A DNA stretch of 45,124 nt from Clostridia bacterium (GTDB lineage: Bacteria; Bacillota; Sulfobacillia; SLMV01), in contig PUMM01000147.1 of assembly GCA_003551365.1 (NCBI GenBank), forward strand, positions 1-45,124, in the 5' to 3' direction. Shown here piece after piece: positions 39,742-45,124 of this stretch (position 1 is its first letter; every line of letters begins with the position of its first letter). Both the position numbers and the translations under genes were made by a program. The notes below the pieces were generated by a model that was not told the origin of the DNA, searched no databases, and worked only from the letters and a program-made list of their open reading frames with translations.

Positions 39742-40725
39742 TCATGAGTTTCCGTGCTCGCGCAGGATACGCTGGATGGAGAAGCGGCCCCGGCCAAACT
39801 CCTCGGTAAGCTCTTCTATGGCTTTCTTTTTGGTGTTCCCCTCCTGCATGATGCCCTCGAATCGTTGCAGAAGCTGCTGTATTTCCGACTCTGTCCACCG
39901 TTTTCCCTGATTGCGGGGTCGCCCCACCGTGGGACGACGAAGGGAATCACACAGGTATCCAGGTTCGACAGTGCGCAACAGATTGACACCGTGCGAGAAG
40001 ATCTCACTGGATACTTCAAAGCCCGTCGCATTGCGGTTGAGTCCAAGTGCAACGCGGGCGGTGGAGAAACCGCCCAGGAACAGATCGCACACCAGTTCAC
40101 CCTCATTGCTGCTGTACTGCATCATTTTGGTGAGCAGCTCGTCGGGGAGCTCATTCTTGTTCTTGCTGCGGCCAGGTTTGTACTCTCGGTCGATTATCCA
40201 GACATCCTCCCGGTCGCGATAGTTCAGCGACCCACCCTGGTCGTCCCGCTCCTGCAGCCCGTACCGGCATTCCAGGTTGAAGGTTCTGCGCCCCCCGGGC
40301 TTGGCGTAGTAGAGGATATGATAATGCGACGACACGTACTTACGGCTGGTGTAGACACCGAAATTATACTTCCAGATAATGTGATTGATCTCCTGCAGAT
40401 CCGTCTCGTGCAGGGCATTGAGGATATGTATCAGATTACTGTAGCCAGAGATAACGTACATCTGTCCGCCCGGACGGAGGATGCGCTCCGCCTCCCGGAT
40501 CCACTTTCTGCTGAAGCTGGGATAATCAGCCAGGGGGATTTCCACGTAGCCATCTACCACATGCAGTTCATTCCGATTGTAGTGACGGTGGAGGGCGTCG
40601 CCCTCTATGCCGTAGGGGGGATCCGTTATTATGAGATCCACCGATTCGTCAGCAAAGTGCGATCTTACTCCTTCTATGCAGTCCATGTTGTAAAAATTGC
40701 ATCCGTGTATCGTTGTAGCGACCAT
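39742..40725 (-). CDS. DNA methyltransferase (DPPY amino-methyltransferase) with C-terminal DNA-binding-like tail
   Basis: MVATTIHGCNFYNMDCIEGV, LIITDPPYG, CDLFLGGFSTARVALGLNRNATGFEVS; SD AGAGGAG before ATG at 40725. Confidence 0.9.
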   Translation of the reverse strand: MVATTIHGCNFYNMDCIEGVRSHFADESVDLIITDPPYGIEGDALHRHYNRNELHVVDGYVEIPLADYPSFSRKWIREAERILRPGGQMYVISGYSNLIHILNALHETDLQEINHIIWKYNFGVYTSRKYVSSHYHILYYAKPGGRRTFNLECRYGLQERDDQGGSLNYRDREDVWIIDREYKPGRSKNKNELPDELLTKMMQYSSNEGELVCDLFLGGFSTARVALGLNRNATGFEVSSEIFSHGVNLLRTVEPGYLCDSLRRPTVGRPRNQGKRWTESEIQQLLQRFEGIMQEGNTKKKAIEELTEEFGRGRFSIQRILREHGNS

Positions 40726-40758
40726 ATGAGCTCCTCTTCGCGGCAGGTTGTGCATCAA

Positions 40759-40777
40759 TGTACAGCATAAGTGTACA
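40759..40777. promoter_or_regulatory. Tandem palindromic TGTACA boxes upstream of the DNA methyltransferase
   Basis: TGTACA at 40759-40764 and 40772-40777. Confidence 0.4.
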
Positions 40778-41046
40778 GAATTGGGCGTGAGCCCCTCAAG
40801 TCTCATTTAGTAAACGAACCGCAGGAAACGGCAGGGGCGCTCGAATGTCAGTACCGGCAACTGGTGTCCCCCGGAAGTCTCCGATGTGCAAAACCATGAG
40901 ATACTGCAGTTTGCTGCTGTAGGCTTGAGTGGTTTTCCGGGCGGGGCTGGGTGACGTTTGCCCTTTTCCGTGTATACATGGCAGAATAGCTTTGATGTAA
41001 GAGCTGTGTTGGAGCGATATGGCTGAAAACAGGCCCGGCTGGGGGT

Positions 41047-42159
41047 GTGATGCCTATGACCATGAACCGCAGGCGGTTTGTCAGAAATGCCTCTCTGCTG
41101 GGGGGTGCCGGCCTCCTGGGTCTGGCCGGCGGCACCTTCCTGTGGCAGGGCTGTGCGCCTCCCGAGGAGGAGGAGCTGAATAGGGAAGAGGAAGTGTCCG
41201 ATGACTTGCCCGCCTACGCCCGTTTGCACGAGGAGGGCGAGCTCGAGAGGCGGGTGGAACAGGCCTTCGCAGTGATGGAGGAGTGTTATCTGTGTCCCAG
41301 AGAGTGCGGAGTGAACCGCCGTGAGGGAGAGACGGGATTCTGCCGCACTGCAGGACACCCGGTCGTCTTCAGTCGTCAACCACATTTCGGTGAGGAGCGA
41401 CCGCTGGTCGGGGCCAACGGATCCGGAACCATTTTCTTTTCCAACTGCAACCTGCGCTGCGTCTTCTGCCAGAACTATCCACTGGCCCACAAGGGTAGGG
41501 GGCGGGAAGCCACCGATGAGGAACTGGCGCAGATGATGATGGATCTGCAGGATCGCGGCTGTCACAACATCAACCTGGTGACGCCCACACATGTTATGCC
41601 CAACATCATATCTGCCGTGCACATTGCGAGACAGGAGGGACTGGAGCTCCCGCTGGTCTACAATACCAGCGGCTATGAGAACGCAGAGATGATCGAGATG
41701 CTGGACGGTGTAGTTGACATCTACCTGCCGGACATGAAATTCATGGATGGCGACAATGCCGAGCGCTACAATGACGCTGAGGCCCGTGACTATCCAGAGA
41801 AGGCTCAGCGGGCCCTGATAAAAATGCACCGCCAGGTGGGAGATCTGGTAACCGATGAGCGCGGCATAGCTGAGCGCGGGTTGATGGTGCGGCATCTGGT
41901 TATGCCCAACCGCGTGGCCGGCACCCGCGAGTTCGTCGATTGGGTGGCCGAGAATCTGTCCACCGACACCTATGTGAATATCATGGCGCAGTATCGGGTA
42001 GAGCATCGGGCCTACGACTTCGAGAAGATAGATCGGGCCATTCATCCCGAGGAATTCATCGAAGCCGTGGAGTGGGCAGAGGAAGCCGGACTCACCAATC
42101 TTGACGAGCGGTCCCTTGAACAGCTGGAACGAATGCGCAGGCAGGTGGGGGGCGGCTAA
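41047..42159 (+). CDS. Radical SAM protein (PflA/AmmeMemoRadiSam-like) with Tat signal and lipobox-like Cys
   Basis: NRRRFVRNASLLGGAGLLGLAGGTFLWQGC; CNLRCVFCQN (CxxxCxxC). Confidence 0.9.
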   Translation: MMPMTMNRRRFVRNASLLGGAGLLGLAGGTFLWQGCAPPEEEELNREEEVSDDLPAYARLHEEGELERRVEQAFAVMEECYLCPRECGVNRREGETGFCRTAGHPVVFSRQPHFGEERPLVGANGSGTIFFSNCNLRCVFCQNYPLAHKGRGREATDEELAQMMMDLQDRGCHNINLVTPTHVMPNIISAVHIARQEGLELPLVYNTSGYENAEMIEMLDGVVDIYLPDMKFMDGDNAERYNDAEARDYPEKAQRALIKMHRQVGDLVTDERGIAERGLMVRHLVMPNRVAGTREFVDWVAENLSTDTYVNIMAQYRVEHRAYDFEKIDRAIHPEEFIEAVEWAEEAGLTNLDERSLEQLERMRRQVGGG

Positions 42160-43356
42160 TCAACTCCACCTGCCCGGTATCTCCTCGCTGCAGTACGCGC
42201 AGCGGCCGTCCTCCATGTTCACTTCTTCAATGACAAAGCCGAGCCGGTCGATGATTTTCTCTCCGCAGGCAGGACAGAAAGTATTTTCTGCTTCGTGGTC
42301 ACTCACCCGGGATATATAGACGAACTTCAACCCGGCCTGTTGGGCAGTTTCGCGCGCCTCCTCGAGGGTGGAGACCGGTGTTCGGGGCACCTCGGACAGT
42401 TTGTAAAGCGGATAGAACCGGACGAAGTGCAGAGGGATGGCGGGGTCGAGTTCGTCGGCAATCCATGCGCACATCTCGCCCACTTCCTCCATGTCGTCGT
42501 TCTGACCGGGGATCAGAATGTTGGTGATCTCAATGTGCACACCACTGTCTTTCAGAAGCCGCAGGGTATCGAGGACGGGCTGCAGCTCTCCTCCCACTAT
42601 GTCCCGATAGAACTTCTCATTGAAGCTCTTCAGGTCTACGTTTACTGCATCAATTCGGTCCACCAGCTCCTTCACCGGTTCGGGCTGCACATACCCCGCC
42701 GTGTGCACGAGATTGAGCAGGCCGGCCTCACTGGCGAGAGAGGCAACCTCGGACATGTACTCGTAGAATATGACCGGTTCGCCGAATGCATAGCTGATCG
42801 ACTCCACACCGGATTCCTCTGCATGCTGCAATGCCTTCTCCGGCGGAACGTCGTGTGCGTACACTTTTTCCGGATACTCGAGAGCCATGTCCCACACCTC
42901 ACAGAACTTGCAATCCAGGTTGCATCCCGCTGTCGATATGGACAGTGCGCGAGTACCGGGCAGCACGTGGAAGAATGGCTTTCTCTCTATGGGATCTTCC
43001 TGTAAGAGGGCGGGATTGCCGTAGGCCAGCGTGTAGCCGACCCCCTCGCGGTTTTCGCGTACCCGGCAGGGCCCTCTTTCCCCGTCCTGCAATTCACACT
43101 GTCTCGGACACAGCTCGCAGCGTATCCCGCCGTCGTCCAGTTCCGTGAACCAGGGGGAACGTACCGGATTGGTGAATCCCTTTCTTTCCTCCAGCAGCGC
43201 CTCCCCGGGCCCGTCATCCGCCGGCTTCTCCGGTTCTTCGGTCCCGGGGGAGCAGCCCAGGACGTTGGCGATATAAAATAGACAGATCCCGGCTCCGCCG
43301 CTGCGCAAAAAACGTCGCCTGCTGAGCTTGCCCTCGTCTTTCCTGTCATCAGACAT
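42160..43356 (-). CDS. AmmeMemoRadiSam-type radical SAM protein with Tat signal and lipobox-like Cys
   Basis: LSRRRFLRSGGAGICLFYIANVLGC; CNLDCKFCEV; CELCPRQCELQDGERGPCRVREN; C-terminal CPACG/CAYC zinc ribbon. Confidence 0.92.
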   Translation of the reverse strand: MSDDRKDEGKLSRRRFLRSGGAGICLFYIANVLGCSPGTEEPEKPADDGPGEALLEERKGFTNPVRSPWFTELDDGGIRCELCPRQCELQDGERGPCRVRENREGVGYTLAYGNPALLQEDPIERKPFFHVLPGTRALSISTAGCNLDCKFCEVWDMALEYPEKVYAHDVPPEKALQHAEESGVESISYAFGEPVIFYEYMSEVASLASEAGLLNLVHTAGYVQPEPVKELVDRIDAVNVDLKSFNEKFYRDIVGGELQPVLDTLRLLKDSGVHIEITNILIPGQNDDMEEVGEMCAWIADELDPAIPLHFVRFYPLYKLSEVPRTPVSTLEEARETAQQAGLKFVYISRVSDHEAENTFCPACGEKIIDRLGFVIEEVNMEDGRCAYCSEEIPGRWS

Positions 43357-45124
43357 ATGGGTTTTCAGCCCCCCTTGCCATCAGGAGCACCGCGGCCGCC
43401 GTGAGACTGGCCCCCGCCGCCAACAGACAGCACGCGGTGATGCCGAAAATGGGTGCCACCACAGCACTGGCCGCAATTGCTCCCAGACATGCTCCAAACA
43501 GCTCCACTCCGTATGCTGTTCCCGTTGATCTCTCGGCGCGTCCGTGTAGAGAGGTGTAGCAGGCCACCGCCAGCGGAAAGTCGATCCCGTTCAGCATTCC
43601 TGCCACAAAGGTTAGCACGGAAAATAGCAGAAACACAATAAGAGGCAATCGCACGGCTGCCGCACCGGGCAGGCCGAACGCTATGGCCCCGGACAGGACA
43701 GCCATGAGTATCTGCACCTTTGCCAGATTATCGATGCTGGTCTTATCACTCACATAGCGATGAGCGAGGAAGGCGCCCAGGGACAGACCGCACATGAACA
43801 TTGCCGTCACCAGTCCCACCATCTCGTAGACGAAACCGTATATGCTCTGAAAGGAAAACAGCAGACCTATTTGCAGGCTCATAGTGGAAAGGCCGGTGGT
43901 GAAGACCGTAAGGAGCACTGCCAGCCTGGACAGTGGGCCAGCGCCGATTCCCTTTGCTCTGACACGCAGTAGCGCTGCGAGCAACAGGGGAAGGGCAGCC
44001 AGCGGCAGTATCCACCAGAACTGCACGTGCAGCAGCTGGTGCAGCGACGCCATGGGGTCGCCCCTGGTCAGATCCTCCCAGAGCATCAGGGTGTAGTAGT
44101 ATCCTATCGGTTTGAGGTCAGCATTGATGAAGTAGTGCTGTTCGACGGGTGGCAGCTCGGCCTCCATCTCCTTTTGCTCATCCAGAGCTTTCGGAAACGG
44201 AGGAACTGCGCCCGGTCCCCGCAGGTGGGCGGTCGGATCCCGCCCGTGCGAACGAACCACCCAGTTCACTCTCCTCAGTTGGGTTTCCTCCAACAGTGTG
44301 TGATAGCGGCCGGGGGAAAACTCCTCCGCATCCACTTCCCGCTGTCTGTAGCGGTCCTCCAGGGTTTTGGGATCCACGGATGTTTGCGCAGGTGCGTCAG
44401 TGGCGAAGTAGAACATGAACCGGTCCCCGGCCGGCAGCACTTCAGTGAATACGGTGTCCAGGGTGTGGTATATGGTGGCGTTGCGATTGGCTATAGCAGT
44501 TCCGCGCAGGTCTGGGGTGGAGGTCACTCCGGTCACGAACACACCGTCGGGCCGGAGAAGGTCTGCAGCCTCGCGGAAGAATTCCCGGGTGTAGTATCGG
44601 TTCATCTCGGCGGTGAACGGATCGGGGCGATCCACGATGATCATGTCGTATTCGTACGGTGCGGTCTTAACAAACAGGCGCCCGTCGGCATGAATCAGGT
44701 TGACTCGATCATCATCGAGAGCCTGTCGCGTGCGGGCGGAAACATAGGGGCGCGCTGCGTGTGTCAGGGTCTCGTCCAGCTCCACGTAGTCGATTTCTTC
44801 CACGTCGTGCTGCAGGATTCCGCTCAGGACGCCCCGCAATCCGCCACCTATCAGAAGTATTCGTTCCGGGCTATCGTGCTGAACCAGGGCGAGGTGGGCA
44901 AAATCGACTGCTTCCCCTTCTTCCAGCCCGGCAACTGCGGTCTCCGGCCCGGCCGTACTGAAGATCAGGTGACCACTCTGGTAGAAACTGTACTGATCCC
45001 TCCGTTGGGCAATAGAAATCGCCCCGTGTTCAGAATGATGCGTTTCGATGAGCTCATGCTGCGGGGCAAAGTGGCCCCACTGCAGGTGATAGGCCCAGTC
45101 ATCTACCGCTGACAGAAAGGGAGC
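43349..45124 (-). CDS. Membrane-fused spermidine-synthase-like protein, N-terminus truncated by window end
   Basis: Reverse frame stays open to window end (APFLSAVDDWAYHLQW...EHGAISIAQRRDQYSFYQSGH...ERILLIGGGLRGVLSGIL), SpeE-like core DYVELDETLTHAAR, DMIIVDRPDPFTAEMNRYYTREFF, then multi-TM C-terminus; 8-nt overlap with the radical SAM gene. Confidence 0.85.
   Translation of the reverse strand, partial: APFLSAVDDWAYHLQWGHFAPQHELIETHHSEHGAISIAQRRDQYSFYQSGHLIFSTAGPETAVAGLEEGEAVDFAHLALVQHDSPERILLIGGGLRGVLSGILQHDVEEIDYVELDETLTHAARPYVSARTRQALDDDRVNLIHADGRLFVKTAPYEYDMIIVDRPDPFTAEMNRYYTREFFREAADLLRPDGVFVTGVTSTPDLRGTAIANRNATIYHTLDTVFTEVLPAGDRFMFYFATDAPAQTSVDPKTLEDRYRQREVDAEEFSPGRYHTLLEETQLRRVNWVVRSHGRDPTAHLRGPGAVPPFPKALDEQKEMEAELPPVEQHYFINADLKPIGYYYTLMLWEDLTRGDPMASLHQLLHVQFWWILPLAALPLLLAALLRVRAKGIGAGPLSRLAVLLTVFTTGLSTMSLQIGLLFSFQSIYGFVYEMVGLVTAMFMCGLSLGAFLAHRYVSDKTSIDNLAKVQILMAVLSGAIAFGLPGAAAVRLPLIVFLLFSVLTFVAGMLNGIDFPLAVACYTSLHGRAERSTGTAYGVELFGACLGAIAASAVVAPIFGITACCLLAAGASLTAAAVLLMARGAENPYV

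Follow-up and report, generated by a model that had tools for sequence, protein, structure and literature searches.

The two radical-SAM genes near the end of the window (the whole stretch of DNA analysed, 45,124 nt) belong to a three-gene unit. This unit is best explained, overall, as a single horizontally spread cassette encoding an extracytoplasmic radical-SAM system, a reading to which we assign a probability of roughly 0.5. Export of the two enzymes, an AmrS-family member and a PflX-like protein, is very likely on the evidence of their sequences; that radical chemistry takes place outside the cytoplasm has about even odds. The need for SAM and for a low-potential electron donor is generally taken to tie radical-SAM enzymes to the cytoplasm. 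We know of no exported radical-SAM enzyme and, to our knowledge, no source of SAM or of low-potential electrons outside the membrane has been described. Comparative analysis establishes that predicted export signals, cassette structure and SAM site are all conserved, and the signals, taken together with the cassette, point to a hitherto undescribed radical chemistry outside the cytoplasm. The occurrence of such signals alongside an intact SAM site over more than 12 phyla would imply either an external supply of SAM and a strong reductant, or a new extracellular use of the fold.

The features of the locus are as follows.

41047..42159, plus strand: PflX-like (PFL-activase-related) radical-SAM protein, 370 aa counted from GTG; likelier starts are the ATG codons at 41050, 41056 or 41062
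41047..41151, plus strand: predicted Tat signal of the PflX-like protein, NRRRF plus h-region
41152-41154, plus strand: possible weak lipobox Cys36 of the PflX-like protein (WQGC)
41446..41469, plus strand: cluster motif C134xxxC138xxC141 of the PflX-like protein
42160..43356, minus strand: AmrS-family radical-SAM protein, 398 aa, predicted Tat lipoprotein
42901..42924, minus strand: AmrS cluster motif C145xxxC149xxC152, found in 43/43 aligned relatives
43252-43254, minus strand: codon of the AmrS lipobox Cys35, read from the sequence
43255..43356, minus strand: predicted AmrS Tat signal, residues 1-34, with SRRRFLR and an h-region, up to the lipobox (VLG-C)
43349..45124, minus strand: membrane spermidine-synthase-like (SpdSyn-like) protein, 5' end lost at the contig end

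A preliminary description of this DNA had placed two radical-SAM genes, each retaining a CxxxCxxC cluster, between 41047 and 43356. Both the coordinates and the cysteine motifs (C145/C149/C152 in AmrS, C134/C138/C141 in the PflX-like protein) proved correct. AmrS matches TIGR04337 over residues 69-397 (355.6 bits, cut-off 220) and the plus-strand protein matches Pfam Radical_SAM PF04055 (49 bits, cut-off 29.5); the latter is here named PflX-like. The SpdSyn-like protein matches Pfam Spermine_synth (91.7 bits, cut-off 22.9), its gene being cut where contig and window end together. The radical-SAM genes had been described as a convergent pair. They do lie tail to tail with abutting stop codons, but the unit comprises three genes rather than two, the start of AmrS overlapping the stop of the SpdSyn-like gene. 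Besides CxxxCxxC, both radical-SAM proteins contain an N-terminal CxxCxxxC; AmrS has extra Cys motifs at both ends (CxxCxxxC and CPxC...CxxC). The cassette adjoins a gene for an N6/N4 DNA methyltransferase (39745-40806, minus strand; PF01555, 108.7 bits), near which no restriction partner was noticed.

Export signals

The N-terminus of the window AmrS reads MSDDRKDEGKLSRRRFLRSGGAGICLFYIANVLGC and that of the PflX-like protein M(MPM)TMNRRRFVRNASLLGGAGLLGLAGGTFLWQGC, with NRRRFVR as the signal. Twin-arginine motifs were scored by a strict RR rule and by a relaxed version admitting KR or RK. In line with the initial observation of twin-arginine N-termini, both window proteins (SRRRFLR and NRRRF) pass the strict rule, as do 51/79 cassette AmrS and 41/68 cassette PflX; background is 8/333 among unrelated neighbouring ORFs, and cytosolic relatives give 0/23 (AmrS) and 0/19 (PflX). 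A signal is detectable in 78 of the 79 cassette AmrS (RR in 59, KR in 13, RK in 5, RN in 1), the motif being mis-anchored in the 79th. Several Syntrophomonadaceae cassette PflX have RK instead of RR, a weaker motif. One could still suppose that these are ordinary cytosolic enzymes whose signals reflect chance or wrong start codons, radical-SAM enzymes being, as a matter of general knowledge, otherwise cytosolic. This is scarcely credible, given a signal borne by both genes over more than 12 phyla and by none of the cytosolic relatives scored. The preliminary description had itself raised translation from a downstream start as a way in which export could be disproved; in the window AmrS, the stretch from the signal to the first Cys offers no other start codon.

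A lipobox Cys had been proposed for both proteins. In AmrS the proposal holds up well: VLGC in the window is matched by LLGC and LPGC in orthologues. In the PflX-like protein, the window motif WQGC is weak and reads MNQC in the closest orthologue (genome G003), so that lipidation at this site is doubtful. An AmrS lipobox Cys was found at 35/35 readable loci of single-membrane bacteria vs 4/37 of two-membrane bacteria (one further call, at L108, is a truncated sequence), and most two-membrane cassette AmrS have AxA-like sites in its place. The association with envelope type gives a Fisher p of about 1e-15, a figure that reflects 3-5 independent contrasts on the tree; because the trait clusters in this way, the pattern fits genuine export and is consistent with it rather than proof. 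TatC is present in 31 of the 33 carrier genomes tested. It was not found in the window genome, which is 86% complete and has Lgt; a genome of the same genus (G001) and two cassette carriers (G003 and G005) do have TatC. A low pI was also considered as a mark of export (4.5-4.9 for the four exported AmrS of the window genome vs 7.6 for the cytosolic one). This argument was dropped because cytosolic window proteins are equally acidic and cytosolic PflX is more acidic than exported PflX.

The window genome encodes five AmrS proteins, of which four have an export or anchor sequence and one is cytosolic. Besides the cassette copy (contig C146), these are a protein with the N-terminus MDRRHFC...LLPAC (C17), two with a single N-terminal TM anchor each (C88 and C7) and a signal-less copy adjoining a LigB-AMMECR1 fusion (C29). 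Memo was considered as the AmrS partner and rejected, as the genome has zero Memo match and the partner at C29 is the fusion protein. Of the two PflX genes in this genome, that of the window encodes a signal and that on C149 does not.

Uncleaved anchors such as those on C88 and C7 raise the question of whether the N-terminal segments are membrane anchors, or slow export signals, with catalysis taking place in the cytoplasm or next to it, whether export follows or not. The cytosol provides both SAM and reductant, and some of the sister proteins with single uncleaved TM anchors have no RR. We hold this to be quite unlikely: a lipobox or AxA-type site follows the h-region in most relatives, the positive-inside charge puts the anchored domains outside, and the domain of the membrane partner is likewise predicted to lie outside. 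The extracytoplasmic, membrane-anchored location that the preliminary description had thought surprising thus gains weight from several sides, namely predicted signals on both proteins across more than 12 phyla that are absent from cytosolic paralogues in the same genome, TatC in nearly all carriers tested, an AmrS lipobox that tracks envelope type and the predicted orientation of the partner.

Conservation and distribution of the cassette

Relatives of AmrS were sought in one genome per species (84,980 species), which yielded 76 close homologues with 52-72% identity. The same order recurs at about 77 homologous loci spread over more than 12 phyla: first a gene for a SpdSyn-like membrane protein of ~830 aa, which runs up to or into the start of AmrS, next AmrS itself and last the PflX-like gene, read from the other strand. 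At loci whose contig extends far enough to tell, the PflX-like gene is adjacent to and convergent with AmrS in 70/73 cases, and the SpdSyn-like gene precedes AmrS in the same orientation in 74/76. The PflX-like protein shows 51-73% identity to its homologues, cytosolic and exported alike. No further neighbour is conserved, the largest apparent clusters being antisense ORFs. One of these, a 412-aa ORF at 40807-42045 (minus strand), runs antisense to the window PflX-like gene; such ORFs, repeated at other loci, look like by-products of base composition. The neighbours surveyed include no conserved glycyl radical enzyme or SAM decarboxylase gene, no Memo or AMMECR1 gene lies beside AmrS in the window or at the cassette loci, and no viral copies were found.

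The divergences of the three cassette proteins are correlated (r of 0.73, 0.76 and 0.68); for AmrS and PflX, 1000 permutations gave no r higher than 0.18. In a tree of 119 AmrS sequences (79 cassette, 15 sister exported, 24 cytosolic and one signal-less, L143), a branch with support 98/90 splits the exported proteins from the 24 cytosolic ones, L143 falling on the exported side. All cassette AmrS form a single clade (100/100), in which Bacillota, Chloroflexota, Thermodesulfobacteriota, Pseudomonadota, Planctomycetota, Spirochaetota and others are mixed, as horizontal transfer predicts. Occurrence near the window genome is sparse, with close PflX-like homologues in 3/154 genomes of its class and cassette AmrS in 3/399 genomes of its phylum, the window genome counted. 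A partial PflX at a contig end in genome G026 (L166, contig C158:2-688), 62% identical to the window protein and bearing a signal and a lipobox LLSGC, probably marks another cassette in the same class. On one Omnitrophota contig (T3Sed10; L080:3076-9065), a sister-type Tat-AmrS comes after a window-type cassette.

Catalytic sites and the membrane partner

An alignment of 43 AmrS shows no variation at any of the cluster cysteines, E193-P194 or D241/K243, and in a profile alignment the AmrS sites line up with CxxxCxxC, GGE and DLK of the PFL-activating enzyme. An AlphaFold2 model of AmrS (pLDDT 90) has as its best PDB match 3cb8, the AdoMet-bound PFL-activating enzyme. The radical-SAM site of AmrS thus looks intact in sequence. 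Neither protein approaches the PFLA equivalog cut-off of 231.75 bits (AmrS 70.6, PflX-like 21). Exported proteins that have lost radical-SAM activity, the fold now serving to carry electrons through Fe-S clusters or to bind metal, would need no SAM or flavodoxin outside the membrane, where no supply of either is known; the additional AmrS Cys motifs at both ends suit metal binding. Such a role is nonetheless unlikely, since the SAM-contacting GEP and DLK positions, needless for an electron carrier, are as invariant as the cluster cysteines in exported and cytosolic members.

Full-length relatives of the SpdSyn-like protein (~830 aa) consist of 7 TM segments, a SpdSyn-like domain of about 360-365 aa and 7 further TM segments, an architecture seen also in an AlphaFold2 model of one of them (L088; pLDDT 87.6). 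The density of K/R is 0.188 on the N-terminal side vs 0.062 on the opposite side, with the same sign in 26/26 sequences; by the positive-inside rule, all 26 place the SpdSyn-like domain outside, and the domain is accordingly predicted to face outward. Its closest structural matches are polyamine aminopropyltransferases. The Asp of the GGGDGG motif is Leu in 23/23 cassette sequences, which leaves the ligand uncertain, and the DxxDP aspartates are kept in 23/23 and 21/23. The truncated window protein scores 92.3 bits against a speE equivalog cut-off of 249.55, and 39.5 bits against the cut-off of 40 for NF037959. The replaced Asp and the shortfall against speE make a role as standard spermidine synthase unlikely.

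The fold, the solved structures nearest to it and the retained DxxDP aspartates would suit a cassette devoted to synthesis of polyamines, or aminopropylation of a surface molecule, beyond the membrane, with the radical-SAM proteins as accessories. We regard this as highly unlikely: the GGGDGG Asp is replaced throughout, the DxxDP aspartates are lost in sister proteins, the speE cut-off is missed by a wide interval and no SAM decarboxylase is a conserved neighbour.

Under the preferred reading, a cassette-encoded radical-SAM system outside the cytoplasm, AmrS and the PflX-like protein would fold and receive their [4Fe-4S] clusters in the cytoplasm and be exported, cluster-loaded, through the Tat pathway. 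In single-membrane bacteria a lipid anchor (here that of AmrS) would hold the enzyme on the outer face of the membrane; in many two-membrane bacteria the enzymes would be released into the periplasm. They would act beside the 14-TM protein and its outward SpdSyn-like domain, which would probably handle a nucleoside ligand: SAM itself or one of its derivatives, for example MTA or decarboxylated SAM. The most likely task of the two enzymes would be the radical modification of an envelope component useful at high pH. That the SpdSyn-like protein handles or supplies SAM is a speculative proposal, and an improbable one by our estimate. A fuller version, in which the whole radical-SAM system lies outside the membrane (two Tat-exported enzymes with an outward SpdSyn-like SAM provider or recycler), spread among alkaliphiles and nested within a wider exported AmrS family with its own electron conduits and Fe-S assembly factors, is tentative, falling somewhat short of even odds. 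Against the preferred reading we have weighed the want of a known external source of SAM and low-potential electrons, the lack of a donor in the cassette, the failure to find TatC in the window genome, RK in some PflX, the few lipobox contrasts and the lost GGGDGG Asp.

Sister systems, known relatives and habitat

A second type of exported AmrS, 40-47% identical, is likewise linked to a membrane SpdSyn-like gene. In the window genome (contig C88; L126:9743-13839), G002 and G007, a TM-anchored AmrS and a SpdSyn-like protein are accompanied by a DsbD_2 protein with paired GPC/PC cysteines; the SpdSyn-like protein of L126 passes NF037959 (46.9 vs 40 bits), and DsbD_2 is divergent at the sister locus of G019. 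Loci L126, L131, L132 and L130, from the window genome and relatives, represent this type, the third protein being a CcdA/DsbD-like membrane protein with two Cys. A Spirochaetales MAG (JAUVWI010000068.1; L124:1619-9125) has an operon-like cluster of two exported AmrS genes and a membrane SpdSyn-like gene, together with genes for a signal-bearing nitroreductase-family protein, an FMN_bind/Fer4_5 membrane protein, DsbD_2 and a TM-anchored FeS_assembly_P (DUF59-type) protein. These accessory genes are candidates for extracytoplasmic Fe-S/radical-SAM support and, by analogy, suggest how electrons and clusters could be handled outside. The preliminary description had advised a search for co-occurring electron donors. 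DsbD-like and FMN_bind/ferredoxin proteins do occur in sister loci, but the window-type cassette contains no electron donor, and DsbD_2, FMN_bind/Fer4_5 and Fe-S assembly genes are all absent from it.

At two Krumholzibacteriota loci (L121:5845-10794 and L123:5995-11056), a Memo-AMMECR1 fusion is encoded after Tat-AmrS, and a membrane SpdSyn gene runs convergently. The fusion protein begins with a hydrophobic, signal-like segment, and the start codon that includes this segment is preceded by a good ribosome-binding site; judging from these features, the AmmeMemoRadiSam system is apparently exported here in full.

TIGR04337, the curated family of the window AmrS, also contains the radical-SAM protein of AmmeMemoRadiSam, of which the copy next to the LigB-AMMECR1 fusion in the window genome is a canonical example; in contrast, the cassette AmrS is predicted to be exported, has no Memo or AMMECR1, and is paired with SpdSyn-like and putatively exported PflX-like proteins. 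The cassette enzymes share fold, CxxxCxxC, GGE-like and DLK motifs with PFL-AE and PflX-like relatives but lie far under the PFLA cut-off, carry predicted export signals and have no conserved glycyl radical enzyme. Like the fused MFS/spermidine synthases of NF037959 and the aminopropyltransferase PRK03612, the cassette SpdSyn-like protein joins an N-terminal TM block to a SpdSyn domain; it differs from them in having 14 TM segments and a domain that sits between TM7 and TM8, predicted to be outside, in the lost GGGDGG Asp and, within this set, in its place beside exported radical-SAM genes. Tat-exported Fe-S lipoproteins and periplasmic Fe-S enzymes take the same route, folded and cofactor-loaded, whereas the passenger here would be a SAM-dependent radical enzyme. 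A literature search of incomplete coverage found no exported, periplasmic or lipoprotein radical-SAM enzyme. The cassette also provides a way into the functionally uncharacterised AmmeMemoRadiSam family, relatives of whose partners occur even in humans.

Sample codes of alkaline sites are attached to 67 of the 76 named cassette loci. Six have Cariboo codes and two a CROMO code, which we take to denote soda lakes and a serpentinite site, respectively. Kulunda soda lake codes (CSSed, CSBr, T1Sed, T3Sed and B1Sed) account for 59 loci. T1Sed, T3Sed, B1Sed and CSSed are soda-lake data sets from a study that treated 871 MAGs (PMC6146748). The enrichment is very large, as 871 MAGs are few vs the 84,980 species searched, an estimate from these sizes rather than from a formal background count. 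That the cassette is concentrated in organisms of soda lakes and serpentinite sites suggests a common adaptation to high pH. The AmrS cores of G003 and G005, both of the window's family, are identical to those of the soda-lake MAGs B1Sed10_244R1 and T3Sed10_282, and the window genome therefore probably comes from a site of this type as well.
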